From Chrysogorgia sp. JL179-B06 (taxonomy: Eukaryota; Cnidaria; Anthozoa; Scleralcyonacea; Chrysogorgiidae), in assembly GCA_035772405.1 (NCBI GenBank), contig JAYKKM010000218.1, forward strand, positions 1 through 64,000: a DNA stretch of 64,000 nt, read 5' to 3'. Numbering within the stretch: the first letter of the stretch is position 1; each line of letters opens with the position of its first letter. The translations under genes and the position numbers were made by a program. Of this stretch, positions 10,801 to 25,164 are shown piece by piece. A model generated the notes under the pieces. It saw nothing but the letters and a program-made list of their open reading frames with translations. It had not been told where the DNA came from and did no database searches.

Positions 10801-11531
10801 AAGCACTCGTTATCAGTCTTGTTCTGAACGTTGACGATAGCTTTCTTATCAGCTAGAACTTTTGGTGTTGGGATATAGGATGACGCGCTTATCGGCTTAT
10901 AGGTGTCGATGTGTATATCTAACTTGACGACATTCAAAACCCTCCATCCACTACCTTTCTTCAAGTAGGTCGCCAAGTTCTCGAGAACTATTCCGACTGA
11001 CTTGTCATATAACTCACTCATGTCAGTTCCAGATAACGTGATGCCCACGAGAGAGCGAAACATCGCTACTGCTTCTACTGGTCCACTGTCAGTCGCTCTG
11101 ATCATAACACACTCCAAAGCGAGTTTTGTTTTCAATCCACTCCGCTTCTTCACCTCGTTACGCCAAAGATCGATCACGAGGTCTTTTGATCTCTCGAGAA
11201 AAGTCTTCGGATCTACTTTTCCTCGACTCTCTATGGTGAAAGTCTCCGAGAACCCACGTATGGATTTCTCAGTCTTCTCCACGACGTGATCTTCAGCGTC
11301 GTGAAACTCCTCTTCCTCTGACTCTACGAGTAAGGGGCTGACCTTACTCTTGAGAGTTGTGAAAGCACTAGCGACTCTAGTTCTAACTGACTCAGGTGTG
11401 TGATCAACAAACCAGTCACTCCACTCACCGAGTTTGGTCTTCAAGTAAGACTTCGGTGGATCGACAGTGGGTTCTGGGGTTCCAACAACCCAACTCGACC
11501 ATTCACTAAGTTTTTTCCTGAAGTAGTTCAT
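7827..11531 (-). CDS. polB: Protein-primed family B DNA polymerase (Polinton B)
   Basis: It replicates the element from its ends with a protein primer. I take the start at the ATG at 11531 (1234 residues), because ACAATAAAGGTG stands directly before it. The open frame itself extends 28 codons further, to 11615. Positions counted in the longer frame: two KLSEW/KLGEW amphipathic repeats near 35-70; C2H2-like finger FFCSRC...H...C at 391-412; exonuclease motifs YADFES 445, NGSGYDSH 601, YLKTDV 760; an HNH/EndoVII-like Cys-His cluster 547-587; polymerase motifs DLDKNNLYG 869, KLMNNSVFGKTMEN 1005, FTDTDS 1103. All catalytic residues are present. It is of a clearly different lineage from the PolB remains at 28818-31680. 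Confidence 0.95.
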   Translation of the reverse strand: MNYFRKKLSEWSSWVVGTPEPTVDPPKSYLKTKLGEWSDWFVDHTPESVRTRVASAFTTLKSKVSPLLVESEEEEFHDAEDHVVEKTEKSIRGFSETFTIESRGKVDPKTFLERSKDLVIDLWRNEVKKRSGLKTKLALECVMIRATDSGPVEAVAMFRSLVGITLSGTDMSELYDKSVGIVLENLATYLKKGSGWRVLNVVKLDIHIDTYKPISASSYIPTPKVLADKKAIVNVQNKTDNECFKWAITSARSLEQKNVERLSKNLRIESEKFDWTGISFPTPLSEIKKFTRANKINVNVFAYEEKTGVYPLLIGGESKDTINLLLVTEEDEDGKVNSHYAWVKNMSRLLSSTKSKHGHTTFFCSRCINNFTSQDVLEKHTERCSNVDSIKTEMPEEGSSIKFENVYKTQDVPFVVYADFESSIEPIDSCVNNPAASSTTKYQHHTPSGFCFHLKCFDDSLHYEEPYLYTKKTEDENIGEKFVIELERAVKNIYEKFKVAKEMTFRPEDKRVHDSSETCWLCQKDWTQKTKKGNPDRKVRDHCHLTGKYRGAAHSSCNLKYKLPKFIPVIFHNGSGYDSHLFVKNLSVTEGDIKCIPNNEEKYISFSKDIIVDYETDNDGEERPIKREIRFLDSFKFMPSSLDKLVKNLDSDDLISTKKVFGDDFKLVSRKGVYPYEHMTGLSSLDERCLPTIEKFHSKLNDTDISEEDYRHATEVWKHFDMKTMREYHDLYLKTDVMLLEDVFQNFRKTCKTHYQLDPAFYFTSPGLAWDALLKFTGQELELITDIDMLLMIEAGIRGGVSTITKRHAVANNKHMDYISSEERTGDSLYDPTKPSVFLPDLDKNNLYGGAMCESLPTHGFKWMTEEQLANWGDTPCILEVDLEYPEELHDLHNDYPLAPERVMVNGIEKLIPNLNNKTSYVLHKKNLELYLRLGLKLTKIHRGFTFFESRWMKPYINLNTQLRTKAKNEFEKDFFKLMNNSVFGKTMENIRNRVDIQLVTTEEKMRKLVAKPNYHHRTIFDENLVAVHMRRTKVKFDKPVYLGMSILDISKTIMYEFHYDYIKPKYGDRATLLFTDTDSLMYEIFTEDFYDDIADDVEREFDTSGYSRNHPSRIPVGKNKKVIGMMKDEHHGEQVLEFVGLRAKLYAFLTLRGDQKKCKGVKKAVVDKNIVFDDYRECLFSRLPIYRTMNVFRSHKHEIYTEAVNKKALSADDDKRHILPDGINTLALGHFRI

Positions 11532-11577
11532 CACCTTTATTGTAAGCACTGCTTTAAGACAAGTGGGTGGTTGATTC

Positions 11578-11604
11578 TTTTGAAAGACGCGGGGTCTTTC
11601 AAAA
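11578..11604. terminator. Intergenic hairpin before polB
   Basis: Stem TTTTGAAAGAC pairs with GTCTTTCAAAA (11 bp) around a 5-base loop. It lies between the 3' end of the SAP/NUMOD gene and the polB start. Confidence 0.6.
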
Positions 11605-11611
11605 AGTGACC

Positions 11612-12025
11612 TCACATAGATTTTCGAACCTTATAGACCACCCCATCGAAGACGAGGTCTTTTCCATGTTTGAGACGATACGTGATAGAACCAGCGAACA
11701 TCTTCACGCTGTTTGCCAGTTCGAATATAGACTTATATCTAGTCTCTTCACCAGTGGCTACGTTTGTCTTGATCATGACTTGGGCTGGTTTCTTACCCTT
11801 ACAGTGATCATATCTTTTTGGTGACTCCTCTGGTTCCATGTTGAGTTTCTCTCTGATGACGTTTCGAGATGAGTTTGTCGTTAGCTTTACACCACGTTCC
11901 TTCGCGATAGATCTCAAATTTTTTAGCGTGAGATATTCGCTCTTCTCTTCTTTTGGTTTTGGTTTTCGAACGTACTTCACTTTCGGTTTCTGTATCTTGT
12001 TTAAAGAGCCCTTTGGTCGTGTCAT
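11612..12025 (-). CDS. SAP- and NUMOD-like DNA-binding protein
   Basis: The protein is 137 residues with three parts. The N-terminus is basic, with an AT-hook-like RPKGSLNK and Lys/Pro repeats to about residue 30. A SAP-like helix-turn-helix follows (YLTLKNLRSIAKERGVKL, residues about 31-60). The C-terminal module (YKSIFELANSVKMFAGSITYRL, then a K-G-K-x-F turn) resembles NUMOD1 DNA-binding modules of homing endonucleases. No catalytic domain is visible. The start is preceded by AATAAAGAGAC and overlaps the stop of the upstream 54-residue gene. It lies directly upstream of polB, so a replication-origin or TIR-binding role is plausible but inferred. Confidence 0.6.
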   Translation of the reverse strand: MTRPKGSLNKIQKPKVKYVRKPKPKEEKSEYLTLKNLRSIAKERGVKLTTNSSRNVIREKLNMEPEESPKRYDHCKGKKPAQVMIKTNVATGEETRYKSIFELANSVKMFAGSITYRLKHGKDLVFDGVVYKVRKSM

Positions 12026-12186
12026 GTCTCTTTATTGCATCGTACGTTTTTAAGATACACGTCTGATGATTCGATCATGAGAGACAAAATCTCAGCAAGT
12101 CTGTCCATCTCTAGTTCGAAAGCTGTCTTTTCAATAGAGAAGTAGTTGCTCACGAGAGTGCTGAGCAAGTACAGTACGACTATCAT
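12022..12186 (-). CDS. 54-residue membrane peptide
   Basis: This short gene starts MIVVLYLLSTLVSNYF, a single membrane segment, followed by a charged helix (FELEMDRLAEILSLM). Its TGA overlaps the ATG of the next leftward gene (ATGA), a typical compact viral junction, and its last codons contain the AATAAA that precedes that gene. Upstream it has TAAGTAAATG rather than the full motif, and the hairpin at 12195-12220 separates it from the previous gene. I do not recognise a family. Confidence 0.5.
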   Translation of the reverse strand: MIVVLYLLSTLVSNYFSIEKTAFELEMDRLAEILSLMIESSDVYLKNVRCNKET

Positions 12187-12194
12187 TTACTTAT

Positions 12195-12220
12195 ATCTCC
12201 AAACATGACTGTTTGGAGAT
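12195..12220. terminator. Intergenic hairpin
   Basis: Perfect 10-bp stem ATCTCCAAAC/GTTTGGAGAT, 6-base loop, in the 47-bp spacer after the 163-residue gene. Confidence 0.6.
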
Positions 12221-12233
12221 CACACGACCTAAC

Positions 12234-12725
12234 TTAGAAGACCACACGCTTCCTTTTCACTTTCTCAACTTTCTTCTCATCTTTCACTACCATCTCGTGG
12301 AGATACAACTGAAGATGTGCCACCCCATCCTTCAAAAACACACTGCTAATGTCCACAGCAGCGTTCACGGTGAACTTCTCCATCTTGACCAGCTCGTTAA
12401 AACTAATCTCCTTGTCAGCCTCAGTGTAAGCACTGAACAAGTTTGGGTCACACTTGACGTAGACCTTGTCGTTGTAGAGACCGCTTTTGATCTCTGTGAT
12501 GGCTTTGTCGTCAAGACCTTTTAGAATCTCGTTACCAACACCCCCCAAGTTCGCTAGCTGGTCTTCGTTAAGACATAAGGCAGCTGTGAACTTTTCATTA
12601 TCGAACTTGCTCTTTTGCACTCCGAAGGTGAACACATCCTTGAAGAGGATAGGACCCATCTCGATAGCTACTGTAGAGCTCTTGTACTTCTTGTTCTCGA
12701 CACGTTTTCCAAAACTAATACTCAT
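12234..12725 (-). CDS. Possible single-strand DNA-binding protein
   Basis: The protein is 163 residues and has the look of an OB-fold protein: an N-terminal strand region (GPILFKDVFTFG), FDNEKFTAALCLNEDQ near residue 41, a central strand KVYVKCDPNLF, and a Lys/Arg-rich C-terminus (KKVEKVKRKRVVF). Phage and giant-virus SSBs use a similar statement of ligand-facing strands and a charged tail, although theirs is usually acidic. It sits in the leftward replication block with polB. The start is preceded by TTAATAAAGG. The SSB assignment is a guess from composition, length and position; a capsid-associated basic protein is an alternative. Confidence 0.35.
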   Translation of the reverse strand: MSISFGKRVENKKYKSSTVAIEMGPILFKDVFTFGVQKSKFDNEKFTAALCLNEDQLANLGGVGNEILKGLDDKAITEIKSGLYNDKVYVKCDPNLFSAYTEADKEISFNELVKMEKFTVNAAVDISSVFLKDGVAHLQLYLHEMVVKDEKKVEKVKRKRVVF

Positions 12726-12746
12726 CCTTTATTAACCCTTAAAAGT

Positions 12747-13181
12747 CTAGCGACGACCTCTCGATTTAAACACGACGTAGTTATATGCCTTGTAACCAAC
12801 CCACCCGATGCCAGCGAACATCACCCCCTCAGTTATCGTTAGGTACTCCTTCATCTCTGGTGACGGCGTGTAGTAGTCTCTCAACTCCGGTCTCTTCGCG
12901 TGTGTCTCGCGAAGTGTTGCGTTGAGTTCGTCGAGAGCTGCGTTAGTGTCATTGATGTTGTGGTTAGCGTCCGACAAGGCGAGTCGAAGTCTCGCTAGTT
13001 TGTCGCGGTGTTCGACTTCTTTTTCGTTCCACAACTCTCTATCTCGCGCGAGTTTCTCTGAGGCAAGATTGTGACGCTTCATCTCGTCACCGTATTTGTT
13101 CCCGTCAAGACTCTTGAACAGAAACCCAGCACCGGCGAATGCAAGTGCATTAAATAGACCACCCGTTATCATAGCAGTCAT
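12747..13181 (-). CDS. Membrane-anchored coiled-coil protein
   Basis: The protein is 144 residues. A Gly/Ala-rich hydrophobic N-terminus (GGLFNALAFAGAGFLF) is followed by a long charged coiled coil (about residues 35-95, EKLARDRELWNEKEVEHRDK onward). A second hydrophobic stretch (GVMFAGIGWVGYKAYNYVVF) comes before a basic end SRGRR. It has the topology of a virion membrane or scaffold protein. It is the first gene of the leftward block, and AAAATAAAAGAGAG precedes its ATG. No family recognised. Confidence 0.6.
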   Translation of the reverse strand: MTAMITGGLFNALAFAGAGFLFKSLDGNKYGDEMKRHNLASEKLARDRELWNEKEVEHRDKLARLRLALSDANHNINDTNAALDELNATLRETHAKRPELRDYYTPSPEMKEYLTITEGVMFAGIGWVGYKAYNYVVFKSRGRR

Positions 13182-13231
13182 CTCTCTTTTATTTTTGTGG
13201 TCTTATAGCGACTCGTCAAACACACTAATAA
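13182..13231. promoter_or_regulatory. Divergent promoter with mirrored AATAAA
   Basis: This 50-bp spacer lies between two start codons facing away from each other. Leftward it reads AATAAAAGAGAG-ATG and rightward CTAATAAATG. No gene ends here, so these AATAAA copies cannot be poly(A) signals. No hairpin is present, unlike the 3' spacers. Confidence 0.65.
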
Positions 13232-13444
13232 ATGAACGACAACAATCCGATAACTGAGTCTGAGTTCGAGAGTGAGAGTGAAGAGGAGATGCTCACCAGA
13301 TGTGAGGTGAAGGAAATGATCGACAGGCGTGTGGTGGGAGGATTCCTGGGTGGCATAGCCATGTTCGGTGGTTATTTTATCACTTGGTGTGGTTACAAGC
13401 TCTCCACAATCGGAGCGAAGTTGCTATTTGACGAGCCACAATAA
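13232..13444 (+). CDS. Small single-pass membrane protein
   Basis: The protein is 70 residues: an acidic head (ESEFESESEEE), a short charged linker, then a Gly-rich membrane segment (VVGGFLGGIAMFGGYFITWC) and an amphipathic tail. The ATG overlaps AATAAA. The next gene starts 3 bp downstream. No family recognised. Confidence 0.55.
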   Translation: MNDNNPITESEFESESEEEMLTRCEVKEMIDRRVVGGFLGGIAMFGGYFITWCGYKLSTIGAKLLFDEPQ

Positions 13445-13446
13445 AC

Positions 13447-13638
13447 ATGTTCGCAGGAGTTCGCTCAAATGGTCACTCGAAGTTAGAAGATTACGCATTG
13501 AAAGTTTTGAGACTTGAGAAAAAGATTGAAGAGCTGGAAGAATACGCGAGGTTCCGAGTGAAAAAGATAAGCACGTTAGAATACGAGAACAAATACTTCA
13601 AGAGTCAGCGAAGTGGTGAGATGGGTGCTTTGAAGTAG
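13447..13638 (+). CDS. Short coiled-coil protein
   Basis: The protein is 63 residues, mostly a predicted coiled coil (LKVLRLEKKIEELEEYARFR). The start follows AATAAAC by one base and sits right behind the stop of the previous gene. Function unknown; an oligomeric scaffold or fibre-base role would fit the size. Confidence 0.5.
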   Translation: MFAGVRSNGHSKLEDYALKVLRLEKKIEELEEYARFRVKKISTLEYENKYFKSQRSGEMGALK

Positions 13639-13672
13639 TCGTGCTGTGAGTTAACTGCTAGATGACCTGTGA

Positions 13673-13701
13673 GTTAACTGTGAGATGACCTCACAGTTAA
13701 C
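13673..13701. terminator. Hairpin with flanking direct repeats
   Basis: Stem GTTAACTGTGAG/CTCACAGTTAAC (12 bp), 5-base loop. A second direct copy TGTGAGTTAACTG lies just upstream (13645-13657), so the spacer 13639-13721 contains three versions of the same arm. Confidence 0.6.
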
Positions 13702-13721
13702 TGTAACTAAATAAAAGAGAC

Positions 13722-14075
13722 ATGGAAACCATAACGAGTAACAAGTCTGATAAAATTAAAGACCCGAAAAGAGTCGCTGCGGGAAAGAGACTCGCTGCGA
13801 TCAGCAAAGACGCGAAAGAGAGAAAAGCTCGCGAAAAATTCGCGAATGAGTCTCACCGTGAGGACCGTGAGGATGAACGGAGTAACTCTAGTTTTGGTTA
13901 CGTCGTTGGGACTATTGGGGCTATCACTGGGATCGGTGCGTTGTATTACGCCTATAAACGTAGTGAGTCTCGAGACAAGTTTCAAGAATCTCCACAAGAG
14001 GGACCTGAGAAATCAAAAAGTCAAGTTACAACGACGTTCACACCATGCGCTCACGCGTTAGAGTCTTTTGACTGA
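13722..14075 (+). CDS. Basic single-pass membrane protein
   Basis: The protein is 117 residues: a Lys/Arg/Glu-rich N-terminal half (KRVAAGKRLAAISKDAKERK), one Gly-rich membrane segment near residues 60-78 (VVGTIGAITGIGALYYAY), and a polar tail. AATAAAAGAGAC precedes the ATG. Function unknown; it belongs to the rightward cluster of small membrane proteins, 13232-14785. Confidence 0.55.
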   Translation: METITSNKSDKIKDPKRVAAGKRLAAISKDAKERKAREKFANESHREDREDERSNSSFGYVVGTIGAITGIGALYYAYKRSESRDKFQESPQEGPEKSKSQVTTTFTPCAHALESFD

Positions 14076-14090
14076 CACTATAATAAAAGG

Positions 14091-14315
14091 ATGACAGATC
14101 GAAAAGTTATTATGAACGAAGTCTATGACACTTTGCTCTACGTCGCAGCCGCAGTTGGAATTAGCATGGCAAGTAAGAAGGTTCTTGGAGAGTCTCTCGG
14201 AGCACCAAGTAGTCTCGTTGGAACATTGAAACTCGCGGTTGCGGTAACTGCTGGGACAGTTGCTGTGAAATACGCTCAGAAGCAGAAATTCATTCCAGAT
14301 GATCCTTTCAAGTGA
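14091..14315 (+). CDS. Small hydrophobic protein
   Basis: The protein is 74 residues with two hydrophobic segments (LLYVAAAVGISMA near 16-28 and LVGTLKLAVAVTAGTVAV near 42-59), probably a membrane hairpin, and a basic C-terminus. TATAATAAAAGG precedes the ATG. Resembles no family I know. Confidence 0.5.
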   Translation: MTDRKVIMNEVYDTLLYVAAAVGISMASKKVLGESLGAPSSLVGTLKLAVAVTAGTVAVKYAQKQKFIPDDPFK

Positions 14316-14343
14316 GGTGATACAACGCCCCCCCTTAGTACAC

Positions 14344-14375
14344 AACTCTCGTAGTGAGCGATCACTACGAGAGTT
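14344..14375. terminator. Strong intergenic hairpin
   Basis: Perfect 14-bp stem AACTCTCGTAGTGA/TCACTACGAGAGTT with loop GCGA. Just upstream (14321-14341) is a stretch resembling the TIR segment around 7717-7740 (GTGATACAACGCCCCCCCTT), suggesting copying of TIR-type sequence into the interior. Confidence 0.65.
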
Positions 14376-14395
14376 TCCACGTTACTAATAAAGAC

Positions 14396-14785
14396 ATGTA
14401 CGGCCAAAACTTAGAAGAGCTGAGTCTCACAGTGAAGAAAGATTTGAAAAGTTCGAAAAAGAAGATGACACGTTTGAAAGTGAAAGCTATCGTGAAAATA
14501 GTCGTGACCACAGTCGTGCTCGTCGGCGGGATAGTCACATCGATATTAGTTCCGAACCCTATATCAGCGGCTGTTGCTATTGGTGCAGCGACGGTATTGT
14601 CTGGATCGGAGGGTATCAAACACACGGTGAAGAGGTTCAAGTCAGTCAAAACTAACAAGAAGACCATTGAGAGGACAGACAAGGAAACTGACAGTCGACT
14701 ATTCGCTGACAAGATTGAAACAATGGTGAGAGGGAAACCAACGGATCCATCTGCACCGGAGTTATATCCTAACTTGCAAGGTTAG
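14396..14785 (+). CDS. Membrane protein with a charged head
   Basis: I start at 14396 (129 residues) because AATAAAGAC precedes this ATG. An in-frame ATG at 14354 falls inside the terminator hairpin and is unlikely. A Lys-rich helix (KKDLKSSKKKMTRLKVK) is followed by two hydrophobic segments (IVTSILVPNPISAAVAIGAA region) and a polar tail that ends PSAPELYPNL. That tail contains PSAP, which matches an ESCRT-binding late-domain motif and would suit a budding or membrane function. One short motif can arise by chance. Confidence 0.5.
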   Translation: MYGQNLEELSLTVKKDLKSSKKKMTRLKVKAIVKIVVTTVVLVGGIVTSILVPNPISAAVAIGAATVLSGSEGIKHTVKRFKSVKTNKKTIERTDKETDSRLFADKIETMVRGKPTDPSAPELYPNLQG

Positions 14786-14804
14786 AACTCGTAGAGTCTC
14801 GTTG

Positions 14805-14831
14805 TTTTTGTAACCCGAACGGTTACAAAAA
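14805..14831. terminator. Bidirectional hairpin between convergent genes
   Basis: Stem TTTTTGTAACC/GGTTACAAAAA (11 bp), 5-base loop, between the ends of the rightward membrane-protein block and the leftward lectin-like block. It has T/A tracts on both strands. It shares the GTAAC core with the hairpins at 22450 and 25181. Confidence 0.65.
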
Positions 14832-14848
14832 AAAAATAATTGTGACTC

Positions 14849-15637
14849 TCACATGATATCATATTCTAACATCATGCTCTTGTTCAACTTTGAGATATCA
14901 GCTGGTGTTAATAGACCGCTCACGATCTTTAGTCCGTAGATCATGGAAGAGACTGGTTTGTTTAATGATGGTGCTTTTTTGCTGGAGAAAGCTGAGCTGA
15001 ACGGATCATCAGCCATTCTCGTCGTCTCGAACCGCTCGTTGAAAAATATAGAGCCGAACGAGGCTCCGCACGCCTTTTTGTTTGCGATGAACTCGCCATT
15101 CAACGGCATTATGTCGTTCACGCGAACTTGACTCCCGTCCATCATCCAGTGACATGAAAGCAGATGCTTACTCTGCCAGTTGACGCTCGTCGGGAACGTA
15201 CAGTTAAGTTCTCCGACTGGCCATCCGCCTCCGAATGATATCTTGTCATTCGAAGCAGCGTTGTAACCAACGAACTTGTCATAGGACCCGTCATCGTTAC
15301 CCACGATATATGACCAACCTCCAGGAGTCGGAGGCTTAATTAGTTTGAGGACTATGAAGATGGACACGTTGATCGTAGTGAGTCTGGGACAGTCGAATAA
15401 CATCCTCGACGACCTCACGTTGTGCAGGCAATCCCTCAGTGGACCCATCGAAGGACTCTTACTGTAGACTTCTTGGTGAAAGTAAGAGTTCCCGTCTTTG
15501 ACTCTCGTGACTCTTGTCCTGCCAGTATGTTTCGTGATCAACGCGTTAGACATGTTGATACCAAAAACAGTCTCGTAGGGAAGTTTTTTCGCTGGCCGTG
15601 ACGTCTTGTCCGTGTCATACCCAAGATATAGACTCAT
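14849..15637 (-). CDS. LamG/ConA-lectin-like surface protein 1
   Basis: The protein is 262 residues. The C-terminal half has the order typical of LamG/concanavalin-type beta sandwiches: YIVGNDDGSYDKFVGY, SKHLLSCHWMM.GSQVRVN, then an IYGLKIVSG segment and the end motif PADISKLNKSMMLEY. In Polintons and related viruses such domains are candidates for fibre or receptor-binding proteins. No signal peptide or membrane anchor is visible. It is the tandem paralogue of 15642-16382, 4 bp upstream, with about half of the residues shared. It carries a unique insertion of about 16 residues (DDPFSSAFSSKKAPSL). AATAAATG marks the start. Confidence 0.55.
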   Translation of the reverse strand: MSLYLGYDTDKTSRPAKKLPYETVFGINMSNALITKHTGRTRVTRVKDGNSYFHQEVYSKSPSMGPLRDCLHNVRSSRMLFDCPRLTTINVSIFIVLKLIKPPTPGGWSYIVGNDDGSYDKFVGYNAASNDKISFGGGWPVGELNCTFPTSVNWQSKHLLSCHWMMDGSQVRVNDIMPLNGEFIANKKACGASFGSIFFNERFETTRMADDPFSSAFSSKKAPSLNKPVSSMIYGLKIVSGLLTPADISKLNKSMMLEYDIM

Positions 15638-15641
15638 TTAT

Positions 15642-16382
15642 TCAAACTAGTCCGTACTCTATCATCATACTCTTGTTCAGCTTTGATATGTCAACAGGTT
15701 CTAGAAACCCACTGACAACTTTTAAGCCGTAGATCTCACCGGATACACCTGTTGTTCTCTCTGTTGTTTCGAGACGCTCGTTAAAGAATATAGACCCAAA
15801 AGGAGCACCAATACTCTTAATATTCGCGTTGAAGGCTGAGCGAGACAATATCATGTTATTCACACGTACGTGACTACCTTTCATCAGCCAATGACAGGAT
15901 ATCAGATGCTTGTCAGTCCCCACGACTCCGCTTGGTAACGTGCAGTTATATTCTTGCACAGGCCACCCACCGCCATACGATAGTTGGTAGTTCGACCCCG
16001 TTTTGTAGCCTATGAACTTATCGTAGGAGCCGTTGTCGTTACCAACGATATATCCGTAGTTATCCACTGACGGGGTGGCTAGTAACTTGAAAACCACGAA
16101 TATAGACACGTTAACACGAGTTAGCTCTGGACACTCAAAGACCATCCTTCTAGATCTCGAATTTTTCACAAAGTCGGCGCCGACGTCTACAGTCGGACTT
16201 TTGAGATACGTGTTTTGAAAGAGACGAGACCTCCCGTCTTCTATTTTCTCCACTCTGGTGGATGTGTATCTCGTAATTTCTGAGTTTTTAACGTTGACGT
16301 TAAAAACAGTCTCGTATGGCGGCGGTGGCTCTTTTTTCTCTGACGTGGCACCACCTTCTCCATATCCAATATACAAACTCAT
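15642..16382 (-). CDS. LamG/ConA-lectin-like surface protein 2
   Basis: The protein is 246 residues, collinear with its neighbour: PYETVFNVNVKNSEITRYT, RRMVFECPELTRVNVSIFVV, YIVGNDNGSYDKFIGY, HLISCHWLMKGSHVRVNN, FGSIFFNERLETT, and the closing PVDISKLNKSMMIEY. Divergence is concentrated in loops and in the N-terminal third, as expected if the two copies bind different ligands. The start ATG overlaps AATAAATG. Role inferred as virion attachment or glycan binding. Confidence 0.55.
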   Translation of the reverse strand: MSLYIGYGEGGATSEKKEPPPPYETVFNVNVKNSEITRYTSTRVEKIEDGRSRLFQNTYLKSPTVDVGADFVKNSRSRRMVFECPELTRVNVSIFVVFKLLATPSVDNYGYIVGNDNGSYDKFIGYKTGSNYQLSYGGGWPVQEYNCTLPSGVVGTDKHLISCHWLMKGSHVRVNNMILSRSAFNANIKSIGAPFGSIFFNERLETTERTTGVSGEIYGLKVVSGFLEPVDISKLNKSMMIEYGLV

Positions 16383-16386
16383 TTAT

Positions 16387-17769
16387 TCACACCACGAACC
16401 TACTCACTATCACTCCAACGAGAACTAACGCTAGCGAAGATATCACACTAGTCGTAGACTCTGTAGGCTTCGCAGGCTCTATAGTCGAAGGAGTTTTTGG
16501 TTCTTCGTCTAACACTTCAAGATGCTCGCCACCACTAGTGTGTGTTTTCACAGGTTTTTTACTCGTGCTCTCAAAGTTGAGTCCACTATTGAAACCAAAC
16601 ACCATATTCGTCTCTGTTGACTCTCTCAGTAAGTTATTATATCCTGGAACAGGTGTTTTCAATAGGACCATGCTTCGCGGTATTAACCATGTGTTTGGAG
16701 TGACTGCCATGTCTAACTTGACGTTCGTGTCTTTGATAGCTCTGTTCATTAAGTTAATCCACACACTCGGAGAGTACTGAACGACCGCGTCTTCCACGAT
16801 GTTTCTAAAGACTTGTTGAACTTCACGAGCACTTGCACGAGACCCAACGATGCTTTGTTTGCTTTTTGCCTGTGCGCCAAGCAACGCGTAGACATAGACC
16901 TCTATAGACTGATTCAGTAACTCCTGACCTAGCTCGGTGATCCCGTCCGATGTTCTAGGACAATAACGCTTATAGTCACCTTGAAGATCTTTGATGTCTA
17001 AGAGCCAATTACCTCCTAACGGGAGGTTTGATCTTAAAACTCTATAGTCCGGGACGTACAGTCTAATGATGTTAGCGATGTCAGTCTTACTCTTGTCTAG
17101 ACGAAACATCACTCTCCTCATGGTGAAATACACGTGAAATCTCATGAGACTCGTGATCTGTTTTGGAACGTCAGGACTAGCTGTTAAGTTTTGTAACGAA
17201 ACTCCAGACCTATACGTGGCAATGTACATTGCAGCGATAGCCTGGTAGTAACTCTTGGACAAAGTCCACACTGTATTGATCATACTCCCGTCAGGTCCGT
17301 CCTGGTAGTATTTTTTCGTGTCTATGACTATCTTAGGAAAGTTTGACTTGAAAGAGTTCTTATCGTCCACGAAGATGTCGAAATTATTGACTTGGTAGTC
17401 GAGAGTGTGAGGTGGATATCTCACGATGTCCTTACCATAACCAGCTGACTCCGTCAGTGGCAACTTTTGGACTGTACCACCACTATTCCATATTTTTGGA
17501 AAAGGAGTGTTGTTGTGTAACCATATCCACATGCTCTTGTCATTCTTAAAAGTGGAGCTGGTGATGTCCGTCGAGATCATGTCACTATTTCGAAAGTAGA
17601 CGTCCACTCTCGACACGTCACCTTGTTGAGTTTGAACTGGATCGAACTCGAACCTACTCATCGTGGCATGCGGGTATTTTTTCAAAAGATCTGACTTAGC
17701 CTTTCGAGTCGCAATCTCAGAGTTCTTGATCGCCTTGTCATAGTTCTCACCGTAGTAAGCTCGTATCAT
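16387..17769 (-). CDS. Tail-anchored 460-residue protein, probably virion-associated
   Basis: The protein is soluble for about 430 residues, then a Pro/Thr/Ser-rich stalk (EEPKTPSTIEPAKPTEST) and a C-terminal membrane segment (VISSLALVLVGVIVSRFVV) ending at the stop. This is the layout of a tail-anchored membrane protein. The body is rich in Tyr and aromatic residues (YYQAIAAMYIATYRSG) and has no motif I recognise. It is the promoter-proximal gene of the leftward block with the two lectin-like genes, so a spike or membrane-scaffold function is plausible. ACAAATAAAATG gives the start. It is not a protease: no His/Asn/Cys signature is seen. Confidence 0.55.
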   Translation of the reverse strand: MIRAYYGENYDKAIKNSEIATRKAKSDLLKKYPHATMSRFEFDPVQTQQGDVSRVDVYFRNSDMISTDITSSTFKNDKSMWIWLHNNTPFPKIWNSGGTVQKLPLTESAGYGKDIVRYPPHTLDYQVNNFDIFVDDKNSFKSNFPKIVIDTKKYYQDGPDGSMINTVWTLSKSYYQAIAAMYIATYRSGVSLQNLTASPDVPKQITSLMRFHVYFTMRRVMFRLDKSKTDIANIIRLYVPDYRVLRSNLPLGGNWLLDIKDLQGDYKRYCPRTSDGITELGQELLNQSIEVYVYALLGAQAKSKQSIVGSRASAREVQQVFRNIVEDAVVQYSPSVWINLMNRAIKDTNVKLDMAVTPNTWLIPRSMVLLKTPVPGYNNLLRESTETNMVFGFNSGLNFESTSKKPVKTHTSGGEHLEVLDEEPKTPSTIEPAKPTESTTSVISSLALVLVGVIVSRFVV

Positions 17770-18457: not shown

Positions 18458-18462
18458 AAAGT

Positions 18463-19560: not shown

Positions 19561-19628
19561 AAAAAAAAAATTTTCGAAAAAAAAAATTTCCAAGACCCTT
19601 GTTGCTATGCACACGTCAGAGAAACTCA

Positions 19629-19756
19629 GGGGGGGTCGGTCAGATTTTTCGCTCGACATAGTTACCACGGGTTTTGAAATTTTTTTTCCGACGAAATATT
19701 TTTTGAAAAAAAATCTGTCGTAACTATGTCGAGCGAAAATTTCGGTAAACCCCCCC
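19629..19756. repeat. Large inverted repeat downstream of the integrase
   Basis: Arms 19629-19665 and 19720-19756 pair over about 37 bases with a few mismatches. The GGGGGGT/ACCCCCC ends and a 15-bp core GCTCGACATAGTTAC/GTAACTATGTCGAGC are perfect. The loop is about 54 bases of A/T tracts. An A-rich block AAAAAATTTTCGAAAAAAAA precedes it at 19561. It could be a terminator or a replication/packaging structure. Confidence 0.7.
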
Positions 19757-19826
19757 TGGAAACGGCGTCCTTAGTTACGAGTGAGTCATGTTACTGCTAC
19801 GGTGTTACCACACGTTACTAGCCGCC

Positions 19827-20057
19827 ATGGATGAGGAAGATGAGAAACACTACCCTCGGGCAAGACTTGTTGAACTTCTCGTCAGAGAAAAAAGAGCAAG
19901 AAGTATTAACGTCGGCCGTGGGGTCACCGTGAGGGAAAAGATTGAGAAGCTTGGAGAGAAGATGAATATGATCTTAGCTGAAGTAGCCGACAACGAGCGG
20001 AGAGTCGACTGGTTAAAGTGTGAGATAGCAAAGCTGCCACCTTCACCTACTCTTTAA
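19827..20057 (+). CDS. Short charged helical protein, uncertain
   Basis: The 76-codon frame from MDEEDEKHYPRARLVELLVR is mostly alpha-helical with heptad-like spacing (EKIEKLGEKMNMILAEV). An ATG at 19788 adds 13 unlikely residues. It lacks the AATAAA start motif and lies between a large hairpin and the long non-coding spacer, which makes it the least secure gene of the element. Confidence 0.35.
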   Translation: MDEEDEKHYPRARLVELLVREKRARSINVGRGVTVREKIEKLGEKMNMILAEVADNERRVDWLKCEIAKLPPSPTL

Positions 20058-20499
20058 AGAAAGACAAGTGCACTGTTTTTTCGTGTTGAGAGCGCACCGT
20101 CTGTTAAAAAAGAAACACTCTGAAACGTCTCACGGGTCGTTCTCACCTCTAGAGGCGACCCGAACTTTTTTGAGAAACGTCTTGTACAGAAAATATAGTT
20201 TTTCTAAATCTTACGAGTTGTTGTTCGTTCACGCCTAACTAACTATCGTGTGTCGTGAATAGTGTCTCTAGACACTTTTCCGTAGTTCAAACACGAGTTT
20301 CCACTAAGGAAAAGTTGATATTCGTAGTGTTTTCCACGGGTTTTTGAGTTTTTACGGCTTTTTTAGATTTTCGCGGCTTTCTTCCTCGCACGGGCGCACG
20401 TACGTAGCGGTCAGCGGTCGCGATAGGAGTGTAGGGGGGCCCCTCTACGGGAGAGAGACGAAATTTTTCGAAAACCTCTAGAAGTTTTCAATGAATAAA
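20058..20499. promoter_or_regulatory. Longest non-coding spacer of Polinton B, rich in palindromes
   Basis: The 440 bp hold no open frame. Short inverted repeats include CGGGTCG...CGACCCG (about 20137-20166), GTGTCTCTAGACAC (near 20260) and a GTAGGGGGGCCCCTCTAC near-palindrome (about 20431-20450). T-rich tracts alternate with CG-rich words. The region ends with TGAATAAAATG at the start of the 418-residue gene. It is a candidate internal regulatory or origin region. Confidence 0.45.
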
Positions 20500-21747
20500 A
20501 TGGCAGAGGCTGAAGACAACTTCGAGATGGAAGAGCGGTTTCCCGAATACGATAACTTAGATATTAACGAACTCAACGTTGCACTCGTTGATCTAGACGG
20601 TAGGTTACTAGCCGACGACGACCCGCTAGTCACTGAGAGAATTACTTATATCAAGCGTCGTCTCTTAGCAAAAACTGGTGAGAGATTTCTTATCGAGGAT
20701 AACAACCCGAAGGTAGTTGATGAGAGAGTCAAAACTGATAAGAGACCTATCGTTAGCCGACCAACTCACGACGAGACTAGTTTCGGTGGTGACATTAGTC
20801 GAGATGTGTTTGTACAGCTAGACAAATACGTGTTAGAAACTCACGATCAAAAACTCAACCCACTCTCAGAGAGTGTTATCGAGCTCAGAAGCCGGACCTC
20901 AGTCAGAGACGGCAAAGTGTTTTTTAGAGAGCGACTAAGAAGTGGCAAATTCTCTTCGATTGACAAAATAGTTCTCAACAACGCGTATGACTCCTACGAG
21001 AGTAACACAGCTAAGAAAAATGCGACTGCTGTGTCACAGTTCAAACAGCTAGTTAACTCAGCTGTGAATGAAAGTAGAACTGGCGAAGACCTCCCGATGA
21101 TAGATATAACTCAGCAAAGTCTACCTCAAGACGTGTTTGAAAGACTTAATGTTGAAGATCAACGTGTTGTGATGGGTGTGTTGAGACCAACGAGCACGAT
21201 GTTACCAGAAAGTAGAGTGGGTGATAGAGGAGCTATCCAACTCACTATTGACGACTTTGAGGAAAGGGGTTATCGTGCTCGTGAGGAGATTCTGAATAGC
21301 ACTGACGTTGAGACAGCTGACGAGCTGGCTCGAGAGTCTGCCGACATAGACACCGTCATCGACGCATTAGAACGTCAACGTGTTGACGAAGAGACGCGTG
21401 GCGAACAGGAGAAAGACGTGTCGCGACTCGAGAAACTCAAAAAGTGGATAAAAAAAAATCTCGTAAGCTTGTCGGCGATAGCGATCACCATCGCTGGACT
21501 GGTAACGACTATCATAGTTGGAGCGAGATCAGCTATCGTTAAGGGAGCGGGTGTCGTGAAGACGTTCGCGAAAATGGTTAAGAATTTGATAATGAAGCTG
21601 GGACCACTCGCGGTGGGAGTTGCAAATTTTGTCTATACACTGTTGAAAGCAGGTGCTAGCATGCTAACATTTCTCGCAAAAAATCTTTGGCTCGTTGTCA
21701 TCGGAATAGTTTGGATGGTAATAGAGTGGCGGAAATCCAGGAGGTGA
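20500..21747 (+). CDS. Large membrane protein with C-terminal hydrophobic repeats
   Basis: The protein is 415 residues from the ATG at 20500, which AATAAA touches directly. An ATG three codons earlier (20491) forms part of the motif itself. The N-terminal 310 residues are charged and largely helical. The C-terminal 100 contain several hydrophobic or amphipathic stretches: LVSLSAIAITIAGLVTTIIV, VKTFAKMVKNLIMKLGPLAV, FVYTLLKAG, and NLWLVVIGIVWMVIEW. I recall this C-terminal pattern from multicopy cnidarian and crustacean proteins of virus-like elements. A membrane-remodelling or virion-membrane role is inferred. No enzymatic motif is seen. Confidence 0.6.
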   Translation: MAEAEDNFEMEERFPEYDNLDINELNVALVDLDGRLLADDDPLVTERITYIKRRLLAKTGERFLIEDNNPKVVDERVKTDKRPIVSRPTHDETSFGGDISRDVFVQLDKYVLETHDQKLNPLSESVIELRSRTSVRDGKVFFRERLRSGKFSSIDKIVLNNAYDSYESNTAKKNATAVSQFKQLVNSAVNESRTGEDLPMIDITQQSLPQDVFERLNVEDQRVVMGVLRPTSTMLPESRVGDRGAIQLTIDDFEERGYRAREEILNSTDVETADELARESADIDTVIDALERQRVDEETRGEQEKDVSRLEKLKKWIKKNLVSLSAIAITIAGLVTTIIVGARSAIVKGAGVVKTFAKMVKNLIMKLGPLAVGVANFVYTLLKAGASMLTFLAKNLWLVVIGIVWMVIEWRKSRR

Positions 21748-21786
21748 ATCGAGTTTAAAGTGGAGGTTAGATAAAGAGATAGCGAG

Positions 21787-22290
21787 ATGGGTTTTGAGGG
21801 GAAAAAAGTTGGGATCGTCTATGTCTTGTATAACACTAAGAATAACGACACGTATATTGGGAGTACGTTTGGGTCTATCGAACGACGTCTCGCAGGTCAC
21901 AAGTATAGATCTACGGATGCTTCGCGTCGAAACATGAAGTTATACCACAACATCTCCAAGATTGGTGGTTGGAGAAATATTCGTAGTCTAGTGTTGAGAG
22001 AAGAGCTCTGCTCTAGGATCGAACTACGCGAGCTCGAAGGTGCTTGCATCTCGAGATTCTCACCCTTCTTGAACACTAAAGAGACCGGACAATACTTCGA
22101 CGAGAAGGGAGAGTACGACGTGAAAAAATACCACGGCGATTACCATCGAACCAACAGAGAGAGGATCTTGTCGAGATGGAGAGCCAGAGTCGTCTGTGAG
22201 GGATGTGATCGCGAAGTTAGTCATGGTAACCTGGCAAGACACAAGGAGTCCGAAATCCATAACGAACTAGTCAGTCAGTCTAAAGAGTGA
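21787..22290 (+). CDS. GIY-YIG nuclease with zinc finger
   Basis: The protein is 167 residues. Signature pieces are in order: GIVYVLYNT (GIY), DTYIGST (YIG), catalytic Arg in IERRLAGHK, catalytic Glu in RELEGACISRF, and Asn in FLNTKE. A C-terminal C2H2-like finger CEGCDREVSHGNLARHKESEIH follows. GIY-YIG nucleases occur in Polintons and virophages, with proposed roles in resolving replication products or in homing. The upstream motif is weaker (GATAAAGAGATAGCGAG). Short inverted words (GAGTTTAA and GGTTAGAT) flank the gene on both sides. Confidence 0.9.
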   Translation: MGFEGKKVGIVYVLYNTKNNDTYIGSTFGSIERRLAGHKYRSTDASRRNMKLYHNISKIGGWRNIRSLVLREELCSRIELRELEGACISRFSPFLNTKETGQYFDEKGEYDVKKYHGDYHRTNRERILSRWRARVVCEGCDREVSHGNLARHKESEIHNELVSQSKE

Positions 22291-22322
22291 ACCTTAAACT
22301 CATCTAACCAACCAATAAACAG

Positions 22323-22439
22323 ATGTGCTTCCAGCTACTCAAAGTTTTGAGAAGGTATTTCTCTCCACGTCAACGACAACGTGTTGACTCATTTGAAGAT
22401 ATAGTTCTAATAGACGGTGTCTATGACACTGTCCACTGA
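22323..22439 (+). CDS. 38-residue gene predicted from the start motif
   Basis: The frame MCFQLLKVLRRYFSPRQRQR onward ends FEDIVLIDGVYDTVH. It is preceded by CCAATAAACAG, exactly the spacing of other genes in the element, and followed by a hairpin (22450-22473). A basic amphipathic N-terminal half is joined to an acidic end. No family recognised; the support is context. Confidence 0.5.
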   Translation: MCFQLLKVLRRYFSPRQRQRVDSFEDIVLIDGVYDTVH

Positions 22440-22449
22440 GCACCTAACT

Positions 22450-22473
22450 TTTCGTAACTTACAAGTTACGAAA
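22450..22473. terminator. Intergenic hairpin before the capsid gene
   Basis: Perfect 11-bp stem TTTCGTAACTT/AAGTTACGAAA with a 2-base loop, in a 52-bp spacer. It has the TTTCGTAAC core seen also at 25181 and 14805. Confidence 0.65.
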
Positions 22474-22491
22474 TTTTTCACGTTATAATAA

Positions 22492-23715
22492 ATGACTAGC
22501 AAAGATTTCTCGCCTCACGCAAAAAAGACTACTATGAGTAGTATCGTTGGCCCACGAACTCGACATGTGGTCACTATGAATCCAAATAGTGTTAGCCCTA
22601 ACGAAACACTCTATATTAACATTCCAAAACTGAAACCCGACTCTTGTCTGGTGCCAGGAAGTTTGAACATCTTGTTTGACTTTAAGAACGTCAACGCTAA
22701 GAGCTGGTTTTTGAATAACCTCTCAAAACTCCTTCAGAGTCAGCTTACCATCAAAATGGCTGGTGAAGTCGCCTATGACAATACTGGCGAAGCCACTATC
22801 GAAGTCTACAAGGATCTCTGGAAGACGGACATTCAGCGTGAAGAGATGATGGAATTCGGCGTCGCTGGTGAGAACCTGAGGAAACTCATCTCAAAAGATG
22901 ACAGCGGAGCTGCAAGTGGGAACACAGCGAAGTTGTCTGACGCGCTCGTGTATAGCGTGTTTGGAAGTAAACAGAAAATCTCACTCGATAAGATTATCGG
23001 TGACTCTGGTCTGTACGCTCCATACAACATGAGTAACAATCTTCAGTTTCTCATCAAGTTACCAGCAGCCACCGACATCATGGTTGCGCAGTCTGGTAGC
23101 GCGGTCGCTGGTTACACACTCGAGAACTTAGAGTTGGAGTATGAGACCATCGACAACATTGACCTCGCGAGTGATATCACAAACATCTATATGGTAGGTA
23201 AGTCACTACCATATGAACACGTCACGCTAATGAAACGTAGCCCGTGGGCAAAAGGAACGACCCTCATCAACGAGAACATTAACTTGCCACGAAGGAGCAT
23301 GAAAGCTGTAGTGTTGCTGTTCACGAAAGCCGCTATCACCGACTCAGAGGAGTTCGTCTATCCGAATATCGATAGTGTGAAAGTCACCATCGAAGGCGTC
23401 CCCAACGAGATCTACAGCCAGGGCATTCCGAAGACCCGCTACTACTCAGAAGCAGAACGTCTCTTCGGACAAGAGAACCAGTCCGTCACTCATCGCGAGT
23501 TCTTCAAGGACAAATTCGCATTAGCCATCGATCTTCGTAGCACTCGAGATCAGAAAGTCCATGGATCTGGCAAAAACATCATGAACACACAGTCGGGAAT
23601 CTTACTTGAGATTACGAAGAAAGTCACACCTACCGACTTGATCTGTCACATATTCGTTCTGTCAGATGGACTACTGAACATCGCATCGGGGAACTTGAAA
23701 AGCATTCAGTACTAG
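22492..23715 (+). CDS. Probable major capsid protein (Polinton B)
   Basis: The protein is 407 residues, all strand-rich soluble sequence without membrane or signal segments. Its gene stands directly upstream of the packaging ATPase, as in many Polintons and related viruses. Features consistent with a double jelly-roll capsid protein are an N-terminal MNPNSVSPNETLYINIPKL strand region, LVPGSLNILFDFK, the residues around FLNNLSKLLQSQLTIK, and a C-terminal strand set ending VTPTDLICHIFVLSDG. It has no obvious sequence likeness to the F54H12.2-type capsid of Polinton A, so it belongs to another Polinton capsid lineage. TATAATAAATG gives the start. Family assignment is by context and profile impression. 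Confidence 0.65.
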   Translation: MTSKDFSPHAKKTTMSSIVGPRTRHVVTMNPNSVSPNETLYINIPKLKPDSCLVPGSLNILFDFKNVNAKSWFLNNLSKLLQSQLTIKMAGEVAYDNTGEATIEVYKDLWKTDIQREEMMEFGVAGENLRKLISKDDSGAASGNTAKLSDALVYSVFGSKQKISLDKIIGDSGLYAPYNMSNNLQFLIKLPAATDIMVAQSGSAVAGYTLENLELEYETIDNIDLASDITNIYMVGKSLPYEHVTLMKRSPWAKGTTLINENINLPRRSMKAVVLLFTKAAITDSEEFVYPNIDSVKVTIEGVPNEIYSQGIPKTRYYSEAERLFGQENQSVTHREFFKDKFALAIDLRSTRDQKVHGSGKNIMNTQSGILLEITKKVTPTDLICHIFVLSDGLLNIASGNLKSIQY

Positions 23716-23734
23716 AAAAAGTCTCGAAAAGTAG

Positions 23735-23762
23735 TTTTCTTATATCGTGTAGTATAAGAAAA
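23735..23762. terminator. Hairpin between capsid and ATPase genes
   Basis: Perfect 10-bp stem TTTTCTTATA/TATAAGAAAA, 8-base loop, 62-bp spacer. Confidence 0.6.
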
Positions 23763-23777
23763 TTTTAAAAATAAAAC

Positions 23778-24383
23778 ATGAACACACCGTTCAACATGCT
23801 GATCGTTGGACCCACTTACTGTGGAAAGACTTATTACTTGCTGAAAATGCTAGAGAGTAAGTTCAAAGGAGTGTTTGATCACATCATCTTACTCTGTCCA
23901 ACTATATTGTGGAACACGACCTATCACGACTGGAAACACTATCACGACAAGGACTTTGTCGTCTTACCAGTGGAACAAGACGGAGTGAATGAGATGTTGA
24001 AATACGTCGTGGCCACATACACTGACACGAACACACTAATTATACTAGACGACTGTGCAAGTGGACAAGATGTTAAAAACAGAACTAGCGAACTCGTTAA
24101 GCTTGGTTACTCAGGTCGACACTACGGACTATCCACTATCGTGTTAACACAGCAGTTGACGAGCATAGCGAAACCTTATCGCGAAAATATTTCGAAAATA
24201 ACTAGCTTCCACAACACGAATAAGAAGGATATGCTTGAGTTAATTAACGACTATCTGAACGGTGTCTCCAAAGATGAGGTAACACACATCACGAATGAGC
24301 TGCGAACCAAAAAACACTCTTGTCTAGAGATAAGTCTTAGATTCCCATATGGACATGAAATTCTCACCCCAAATAAAGAATGA
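23778..24383 (+). CDS. A32/FtsK-HerA-type packaging ATPase
   Basis: The protein is 201 residues and intact. Walker A is GPTYCGKT (11-18). Walker B is TLIILDD (86-92). The sensor-like STIVLTQQL follows near 130-138. This is the DNA-packaging motor of Polintons, virophages and large DNA viruses, pumping the genome into the capsid using ATP. Its presence beside the capsid gene is strong evidence for a virion stage. The last codons (CCAAATAAAGAA) contain the start motif of the next gene, whose ATGA overlaps its TGA. Confidence 0.9.
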   Translation: MNTPFNMLIVGPTYCGKTYYLLKMLESKFKGVFDHIILLCPTILWNTTYHDWKHYHDKDFVVLPVEQDGVNEMLKYVVATYTDTNTLIILDDCASGQDVKNRTSELVKLGYSGRHYGLSTIVLTQQLTSIAKPYRENISKITSFHNTNKKDMLELINDYLNGVSKDEVTHITNELRTKKHSCLEISLRFPYGHEILTPNKE

Positions 24384-24856
24384 ACCCAGAAGATCTAATT
24401 AATAGTGCGAGTGAACCAGACACACCTAGCGAAGGGACTTCGAAGACAGACGAGAGTCTCGCGAAAGAAGTAGCTAAGAAACGAGACGAGCTGCTACTAC
24501 TAGTCGCTGACGGTGAAGTTAAGAAAACCGAGGCGTACATCCGAAAAGCTAACGCGAAAACCATCTTGAAACTATACGCTGAATACGAAGACGAGGTTCG
24601 TGAACGATCCACTGTGTTTCTATGTGACATGTTTCTATCGAAGTTCGCTGACTTGATGGGTGGACTAGACGCTGTTGAAAAACCTGAGGAGATGGAGAAA
24701 GAGCTGAAAAGGGATCCCTATCTAGCTAGGGATTTGAAAAGTTTCATGTCGAAGCTGACCCCGATGATACCGTTCTTAGGACTGTTATCTGGTGGTCTAA
24801 CTGTTGGAAAACATGTCTATAACAAAAATAAGGGAGCTGAGAAGGAGACCGAATAA
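24380..24856 (+). CDS. Conserved helical protein with C-terminal membrane segment
   Basis: The protein is 158 residues: a Ser/Thr/Glu-rich N-terminus, a long charged helix (residues about 25-80), FLSKFADLMGGLDAVEKPEE, and a hydrophobic end PMIPFLGLLSGGLTVGKHVY. I recall similar proteins with IPFxGLLSGGxTVxKHV in multicopy cnidarian families. They probably represent a Polinton-linked gene of unknown role. Its stop (TAA) forms part of the AATAAAG that precedes the next ATG, so coding and signals overlap tightly. Confidence 0.55.
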   Translation: MNPEDLINSASEPDTPSEGTSKTDESLAKEVAKKRDELLLLVADGEVKKTEAYIRKANAKTILKLYAEYEDEVRERSTVFLCDMFLSKFADLMGGLDAVEKPEEMEKELKRDPYLARDLKSFMSKLTPMIPFLGLLSGGLTVGKHVYNKNKGAEKETE

Positions 24857-24858
24857 AG

Positions 24859-25164
24859 ATGTGTGATCACTCTAACGTCGAAGAAGTTCATGGAGTAGTC
24901 TTCTGTGTAGTCTGTGGAGAGATCGATCACTCTATACTATCAACACCTCCCACCACTGCGAAAGAGAAAAACTCTTCAAAGATCAACACTAGTCACCATC
25001 GTGAAGAGGAGTGGAAGTGTCGAATGTTAACTGACCAAGAATATTTCGATAGACAGGTGGCTCGACGAGACGAGCTCGAAAAAGTCTATCACCTCACCAA
25101 CCCAGAGATGGTGTGGAAGATAGCTTATAAGAAATATCTTGATTGGTGTTTTAGAGTAGAATAG
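24859..25164 (+). CDS. Zinc-ribbon protein, possible transcription factor
   Basis: The protein is 101 residues. The N-terminal CDH...GVVFCVVCGEID (C2, H4, C16, C19) looks like a TFIIB-type zinc ribbon, the fold also used by late transcription factors of large DNA viruses. A polar linker then leads to a basic/aromatic helical domain (EEEWKCRMLTDQEYFDRQVA, MVWKIAYKKYLDWCF). With the repeated AATAAA start motif in the element, a promoter-recognition role is attractive but is inference. A simple zinc-binding structural protein is the alternative. Confidence 0.45.
   Translation: MCDHSNVEEVHGVVFCVVCGEIDHSILSTPPTTAKEKNSSKINTSHHREEEWKCRMLTDQEYFDRQVARRDELEKVYHLTNPEMVWKIAYKKYLDWCFRVE

Follow-up and report, generated by a model that had tools for sequence, protein, structure and literature searches.

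What is the hexamer AATAAA doing at the start codons of nearly all genes of a single Polinton? The question arises from a 64,000-nucleotide stretch of DNA from the anthozoan Chrysogorgia sp. JL179-B06 (assembly GCA_035772405.1, contig JAYKKM010000218.1, positions 1 to 64,000), which in its entirety constitutes the window of this analysis. The element in question, hereinafter Polinton B, spans 19,573 bp (7253-26825) and is a complete Polinton with the termini AGTAGTAG...CTACTACT, flanked by GATAAC, which can be read directly at 7247-7252 and 26826-26831 as a 6-bp target-site duplication (TSD). A prior sequence-only reading had listed 20 start codons with an exact AATAAA and interpreted the motif as a start-proximal promoter rather than a polyadenylation signal. 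The answer favored here, with a probability of roughly 0.72, is that in this Polinton lineage AATAAA serves as a directional signal for transcription initiation that is fused to the start codon.

Placement of AATAAA in Polinton B

In the region between the terminal inverted repeats (TIRs), i.e., 7812-26266, comprising 18,455 bp considered on both strands, there are 20 copies of AATAAA, and all 20 are found at an ATG with a gap of -1 to 6, where the gap is the number of bases between the end of the hexamer and the ATG, and negative values denote overlap. All 20 listed start codons are thus confirmed, and the pattern is even stronger than claimed, as no copy occurs between the TIRs away from a start; at none of the 20 sites does the motif lie at a gap of 9-34. 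The only other copies in Polinton B, six in number, are all within 61-bp units of the TIRs. Dinucleotide shuffles of the inter-TIR stretch (n=300) contain 9.6 +/- 2.8 copies (range 2-20), and hence the total of 20 is high yet still within the shuffled range; it is the placement, with none away from starts, that is unusual.

The count of about 25 genes given earlier is reduced to 23 likely genes, one of which, opened by the ATG at 22323, is an open reading frame (ORF) of only 38 aa. AATAAA accompanies 20 of these 23 genes and GATAAA two, while one (start 26205) has neither. Both GATAAA sites had been noted previously: that at 25451 is indeed directly adjacent to the start codon (gap 0), whereas that for 21787 lies 11 nt upstream. 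To compare starts with other ATGs, a motif-blind list was compiled from the longest ATG-initiated ORFs of at least 60 aa overlapping by no more than 50 nt, with the motif sought in -14..+2. AATAAA is found at 18/23 of these starts, as against 0/120 in-frame and 1/239 any-frame internal ATGs (Fisher 2e-22), and in 400 rounds of shuffling the 60-nt upstream flanks, 18 motif-bearing starts were never reached. This comparison, which had been proposed as a check, therefore comes out in favor of the motif tracking true starts. The lone motif-bearing internal ATG must be the start of the overlapping gene at 24380, because nowhere else does AATAAA occur inside an ORF on that ORF's own strand. Among ORFs of at least 100 aa, the motif is present at 15 of 18 starts. 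The motif-blind list includes an 89-aa mechanically called ORF at 19788, whose start lacks both AATAAA and GATAAA; it is outside the 23 likely genes and may not be a gene.

The motif is also oriented, with the reversed form being absent from all 19 non-divergent starts. When the 20 sites are aligned on the hexamer no flanking column is informative, leaving the exact AATAAA as the sole conserved block. No other hexamer in the -120..-8 region of the starts exceeds the shuffles, which rules out an additional upstream box. A trans-splice acceptor is likewise ruled out, as no AG is conserved between the hexamer and the start codon across the 20 sites.

The constant sense orientation and proximity to the ATG would also be expected if the motif were a translation-start context in the mRNA, Kozak-like or a leader element, with host RNA polymerase II (Pol II) producing the transcripts from elsewhere. 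The bases following the motif are poor in C, which further accords with such a context, in part simply because the ATG is among them. Against this, the hexamer is invariant, yet its gap to the ATG ranges between -1 and 6. Further, of the 22 other ORFs of at least 100 aa in the window, some of them in the degraded Polinton A (see below), none has AATAAA at its start and only three have the looser NATAA[AG]; a general start context of the host is thereby ruled out. A translational role is accordingly regarded as quite unlikely.

Gene starts versus gene ends

A more conventional explanation is that the upstream genes use these motifs as ordinary poly(A) signals, which in a compact genome have come to be packed onto the next start codon. 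This finds some support in the presence of the exact canonical hexamer at 20/20 sites, and in five tandem junctions where the motif overlaps the upstream stop codon (offsets -5 or -1). Additionally, an AATAAA lies within 150 nt of 12 of the 17 tandem gene ends, a count that also tells against an initiator; these ends come near an AATAAA because the next start carries the motif. Tandem ends are hence uninformative, and only convergent and divergent junctions can separate a start reading from an end reading. At these junctions the two readings part: AATAAA is present at four of the five starts without a co-directional gene upstream, the exception being 26205, while none of the five gene ends without a co-directional gene downstream has it within 150 nt (Fisher 0.024). 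Moreover, the distance of the motif to the ATG is confined to -1 to 6, whereas that to the upstream stop ranges from overlap up to several hundred nt, and divergent spacers carry the motif on both sides though no gene ends there. The earlier rejection of the poly(A) interpretation therefore holds, and we consider that interpretation improbable.

Recurrence in related and unrelated loci

Searches with PolB alignments recovered two loci, L001 and L012, in IMG/VR and ten contigs (L002-L011) in GTDB, while the L012 PolB as query returned only its own contig (L013). Scans of IMG/VR with the packaging ATPase alone, an ATPase alignment, an alignment of the capsid candidate and the 460-aa ORF yielded no relatives, and neither did a GTDB scan with the capsid-candidate alignment. 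The GTDB loci are Polinton-type PolB matches in contigs of bacterial and archaeal metagenome-assembled genomes (MAGs), and are probably a carry-over of eukaryotic sequence during binning.

Two diverged relatives show the same placement. In L012, whose PolB is 36% identical, AATAAA is found at 6/12 starts versus 5/290 internal ATGs, and the degenerate form NATAA[AG] at 10/12 versus 23/290. In L002, a contig in a bacterial MAG with a PolB 49% identical, the corresponding numbers for AATAAA are 5/9 starts and 4/159 internal ATGs. To judge from these sequences, the AATAAA start signal is shared by part of a wider Polinton group. In L001, TATATA is found close to 9/14 ORF starts, and a start-proximal A/T motif other than AATAAA seems to take its place there. 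Beyond the ten relatives tested, L005 and L006 are PolB fragments with three and two ORFs, respectively, and have no AATAAA at their five starts.

The degenerate motif of L012 bears on another possibility, namely that each ORF is guarded by a sense poly(A) signal which terminates read-through by Pol II ahead of the ATG. The integrated element would then stay silent unless another polymerase, or a start within the motif, came into use, and the TIR units would act likewise at the borders. The exact hexamer of Polinton B and the six inward-facing copies in the tandem units of its TIRs would fit such a role, but L012 has the degenerate NATAA[AG] in the same place, and this scenario is deemed very unlikely. 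A different observation comes from L010, where a convergent junction has AATAAA on either strand, as would befit a poly(A) signal. This adds a point in favor of the polyadenylation account and is a warning against assigning one meaning to AATAAA everywhere.

The mirrored divergent pattern was also sought directly in IMG/VR, and at least 120 stretches were recovered. In the 109 of these loci with at least four unselected starts the fraction with AATAAA has a median of 0 and a mean of 0.09, with L095 (4/4), L051 (9/10) and L082 (3/4) as outliers. The L051 contig has AATAAA at 11/12 starts, or 9/10 without the pattern-selected ones, with gaps of -1 to 3; it has short divergent spacers and codes for TspO and an astacin-like protein. 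It is suspected to be a nucleocytovirus, no database match having settled its identity. In tblastn searches the proteins of Polinton B, L012 and L001 had no match at E 1e-4 to the loci from L014 on, including L051. The L051 contig suggests that a start-fused AATAAA rule exists in another DNA virus lineage, with no link to the host of Polinton B.

Divergent spacers and the position of the transcript start

The start codons at 17769 and 17792 belong to a divergent pair of genes and are separated by a spacer of merely 22 bp (17770-17791), which holds one AATAAA in each direction. Mirrored motifs are also found in 25-bp divergent spacers in both L002 and L012, while a 29-bp spacer in L004 has the motif on one side only. 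Spacers of 22-25 bp leave little room for a conventional promoter and leader outside the neighboring ORF. If the leaders of divergent genes are not to cross into the neighboring ORF, then the transcript start should lie upstream of the ATG, at or within the motif.

The ATGs next to the motif themselves look like the real starts, on the basis of comparisons with homologues of two proteins. In the ATPase, the conserved block starts at residue 3-4. In the capsid candidate, the N-terminus upstream of the inner methionine is similar in length in five of the six homologues displayed, while the sixth (P0033) begins at the inner methionine. These considerations bear on the idea that AATAAA might be a TATA-like box of the host Pol II, with transcripts truly starting ~30 bp downstream of it. 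The sequence is TATA-like, and Pol II is the default polymerase for an integrated element. However, transcripts would then start inside the ORF, yet the motif-proximal ATGs of the ATPase and capsid candidate look real; with real ATGs and a transcript start upstream of them, a TATA box 30 bp before that start becomes extremely unlikely.

Depletion of TAAA inside genes

A further argument for the initiator comes from the frequency of TAAA inside genes, assessed in 22 ORFs of Polinton B (5330 codons) for 130 4-mers, holding protein sequence, codon use and dinucleotides fixed. TAAA is observed 46 times on both strands versus 105.1 expected, the lowest z of all 130 4-mers (-7.1; -8.4 in a repeat), and the deficit is seen on the sense (30 versus 74.8) as well as the antisense strand (16 versus 30.2). 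Avoidance on both strands is not required of an RNA signal, which speaks against polyadenylation, and its extension to the antisense strand is similarly at odds with a translational context. For the full AATAAA the count is 0 on either strand, as against 4.6 sense and 2.7 antisense copies in synonymous shuffles, or 3.3 and 1.0, respectively, with dinucleotides also kept; these numbers are too small for a strand-specific depletion of the full hexamer to be decisive. The 5-mers AATTG, AATCG and AATCA are likewise scarce in the coding sequences of Polinton B.

Comparison with known systems

In vaccinia virus, passages of PMC11980589 and PMC5294985 describe TAAA ahead of the start codon in intermediate promoters and TAAAT(G) in late promoters. 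Comparably, a TAAA core lies at or overlaps the start codon in 20/20 Polinton B sites, and the late-type TAAATG is contained in AATAAATG, which is found in four Polinton B genes. Polinton B differs from poxviruses in being integrated, with TIRs and a TSD. By this analogy the poxvirus TAAA(T) initiators would be the nearest functional likeness, i.e., a resemblance that carries no claim of membership in the class.

A second parallel is provided by the Mavirus/EMALE virophages, in which, according to a part of PMC8547959, the promoters have a TCTA motif that is shared with CroV and diverse by EMALE type. As in Polinton B, a single short motif thus precedes many genes of a small integrating DNA virus. 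Unlike in Polinton B, the motif has different letters, is found within 100-nt upstream regions and belongs to elements with a protist host; further, a helper is known for mavirus while none is known for Polinton B. Medusavirus has a motif NRAAWAAA 0-60 bp upstream of start codons with letters similar to AATAAA, but, in the portion of PMC8557863 dealing with it, it has no preference for intergenic DNA and its promoter status is unclear, whereas the Polinton B motif is exact, confined to gaps of -1 to 6 and otherwise absent between the TIRs.

Among Polintons, the vertebrate Mavericks in the relevant parts of PMC8097293 resemble Polinton B in their TIRs, 6-bp TSD and AGT-type termini; in that article, the passages with "motif" concern termini and protein motifs, and "promoter" comes up only for a host gene or a reference. 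The main texts of PMC11071308, PMC11071296 and PMC12220804 lack the word "promoter", and their passages with "motif" or "transcript" concern other matters. Among the matches listed in the literature searched, which mostly leaves out subscription papers, no gene-start motif of animal Polintons was found, and the matches listed for Mavericks/Polintons make no mention of AATAAA.

A proposed start-fused initiator and the points against it

Under the favored reading, AATAAA would act at the DNA level as an initiator. Transcription of each gene, or of each gene of one temporal class, would begin at the TAAA core or slightly within it, and the resulting mRNAs would have very short leaders of ~0-12 nt, like those of intermediate and late poxvirus genes. 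The 22-bp spacer at 17770-17791 would be the core of a proposed bidirectional start signal. The reader would be a polymerase or factor tuned to TAAA, such as the host Pol II, perhaps in modified form, or the polymerase of a co-infecting virus. As an extension, some animal Polintons might in an active phase depend not on ordinary Pol II promoters but on a poxvirus-like TAAA initiator at each start codon, which a co-infecting nucleocytovirus would read with its own polymerase, making these Polintons animal counterparts of virophages; this is a tentative proposal that we hold to be doubtful.

Several observations weigh against an initiator. First, exact AATAAA is also read by the cellular cleavage machinery. 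Second, poxvirus promoters differ in that no T-rich upstream core is seen in the 20 aligned Polinton B sites, and, again unlike poxviruses, no RNA polymerase gene was detected by Pfam in the 19 of 23 Polinton B ORFs that were scanned. Third, GTAC is depleted in Polinton B genes to nearly the same degree as TAAA (20 versus 51.4, z -7.0), and on the sense strand alone it ranks lowest of the 4-mers; a depleted 4-mer is hence not necessarily a promoter element. Fourth, the avoidance of TAAA is not seen in L012, L001, L002, L004 or eight other ORFs of the window; Polinton B alone shows it, and avoidance as a trait of the whole group is ruled out. Fifth, both L002 and L012 are AT-rich (28-32% GC), a composition in which A-rich start contexts are common. 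Finally, the expectation that the motif would recur in related elements, while borne out in these two, did not hold generally across the ten relative loci tested: AATAAA is not clearly enriched in L001 (2/14 starts), L003 (0/4), L007 (1/4), L008 (0/4), L009 (0/6), L010 (1/7) and L011 (1/12), and is weak in L004 (2/6). L007 is from the same MAG as L002. Most of L011, a fragment of a 58-kb contig in which the match covers 91 residues, may be bacterial.

In balance, the part of the earlier interpretation that posits a start-proximal, promoter-like signal is sustained by the tracking of starts, the mirrored 22-bp spacer, the near-absence at internal ATGs and the two relatives. The part invoking a dedicated or helper-virus polymerase is conjectural, with no RNA polymerase detected in the 19 of 23 ORFs scanned and no helper known. 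For the question of how Polintons express their genes, and whether they form virions at all, the motif offers a testable rule of transcription. Under such a rule leaders should be very short, small genes like the 38-aa ORF at 22323 become recognizable, and a letter code is available by which a helper virus could be sought.

Gene content and architecture of Polinton B

The hallmarks of Polintons/Mavericks found in Polinton B include the long TIRs and 6-bp TSD, a retrovirus-type integrase with a chromodomain and a packaging ATPase of the A32/FtsK type (Pox_A32). The arms of the TIR as reported by a repeat finder are 563 bp in length and 100% complementary; they span 7249-7811 (forward) and 26267-26829 (reverse), and thus take in a few flanking bases. 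Each TIR has the same three 61-bp tandem units (7331-7514 and 26564-26747), with one inward-facing AATAAA per unit. Domains recovered by Pfam comprise a PolB-linked Endonuclease_7, rve with the chromodomain, Pox_A32, GIY-YIG and DUF2738, while no match to an adenovirus-type maturation protease was obtained in the 19 of 23 ORFs scanned.

On the reverse strand, starting from the left TIR, the first gene is the PolB ORF (7827-11531, 1234 aa) with AATAAA at 11541-11536 (gap 4). Its sole Pfam match is to Endonuclease_7. At least 7976 of 8000 scored candidates match it at E <= 1e-3, and proteins from Stylophora pistillata and Amphiura filiformis are among the homologues in the matches listed. One homologue among these matches, P0240, carries PF03175, a viral/organellar PolB family. 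By kinship, the ORF is accordingly predicted to be a family B DNA polymerase of the protein-primed type. It is followed by a 137-aa ORF (11612-12025, gap 5), a 163-aa ORF with the DUF2738 match (12234-12725, gap 2) and a 144-aa ORF (12747-13181, gap 6), all three on the same strand and with AATAAA. The last of these forms a divergent pair with a 70-aa ORF on the forward strand (13232-13444), in which the motif overlaps the ATG in AATAAATG; the two start codons, 13181 and 13232, are 50 bp apart. Downstream of it are four small tandem forward ORFs (13447-14785) with starts at 13447, 13722, 14091 and 14396 and AATAAA at gaps of 1, 6, 3 and 3, respectively.

The next two genes, on the reverse strand (14849-16382, starts 15637 and 16382), are tandem paralogues which are 51% identical, both with AATAAATG at the start and both opening with AATAAATGAGT. 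The above-mentioned 22-bp spacer separates the reverse-strand 460-aa ORF (16387-17769, AATAAAATG) from a forward-strand 221-aa ORF (17792-18457, AATAAAAATG, gap 1). All genes from the latter to the start at 24859 are on the forward strand. The integrase gene (18463-19560) has AATAAA at gap 4, overlapping the stop codon of the preceding gene; its Chromo match is over the Pfam cut-off and its rve match slightly under it. Right after this gene, at 19560-19760, there is an A-rich run with a 49-bp imperfect inverted repeat. The 415-aa ORF (20500-21747) has AATAAAATG at gap 0; the in-frame ATG at 20491 is an alternative to the start chosen at 20500. Its product shows a near-threshold match to the fungal STAND N-terminal "Goodbye" domain (E 4.6e-5, 24.3 of 24.8 bits).

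The gene for the GIY-YIG protein (21787-22290), with its upstream GATAAA variant, is followed by the 38-aa ORF (22323-22439, AATAAA at gap 3) and the 407-aa capsid candidate (22492-23715, AATAAATG), a putative double jelly-roll major capsid protein. The latter has 456 homologues, with the named ones in the best 120 being from the octocoral Paramuricea clavata (54-59% identity). Together with the named PolB homologues, these point to a marine animal as the probable host, in keeping with the BEL/Pao-type domains elsewhere in the window. Its structure model is strand-rich with a mean pLDDT of 77.8, and no convincing match by sequence was found in the PDB. The A32-type packaging ATPase (23778-24383, gap 2) matches Pox_A32 with E 1.7e-14, and is followed by two ORFs (24380-25164) with starts at 24380 and 24859 and AATAAA at gaps of 2 and 1. 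The remaining two genes are on the reverse strand, namely a 78-aa ORF (25215-25451) with the variant GATAAAATG, and a 250-aa ORF (25453-26205) which adjoins the right TIR and is the single gene with neither form of the motif.

Other features of the window

The first part of the window (1-3650) contains the degraded Polinton A, with integrase/chromodomain and capsid-like fragments and no AATAAA seen at its ORF starts. To the right of Polinton B, at 44386-57550, two identical 300-bp direct repeats placed 12.9 kb apart surround ORFs with DUF1759 and DUF5641, presumably of the BEL/Pao type; a Mutator-like transposase ORF (49060-49794) lies inside this pair of repeats. Between the two Polintons, at 4864-6239, there are duplicated repeat pieces, ~920 bp apart and 98-100% identical.

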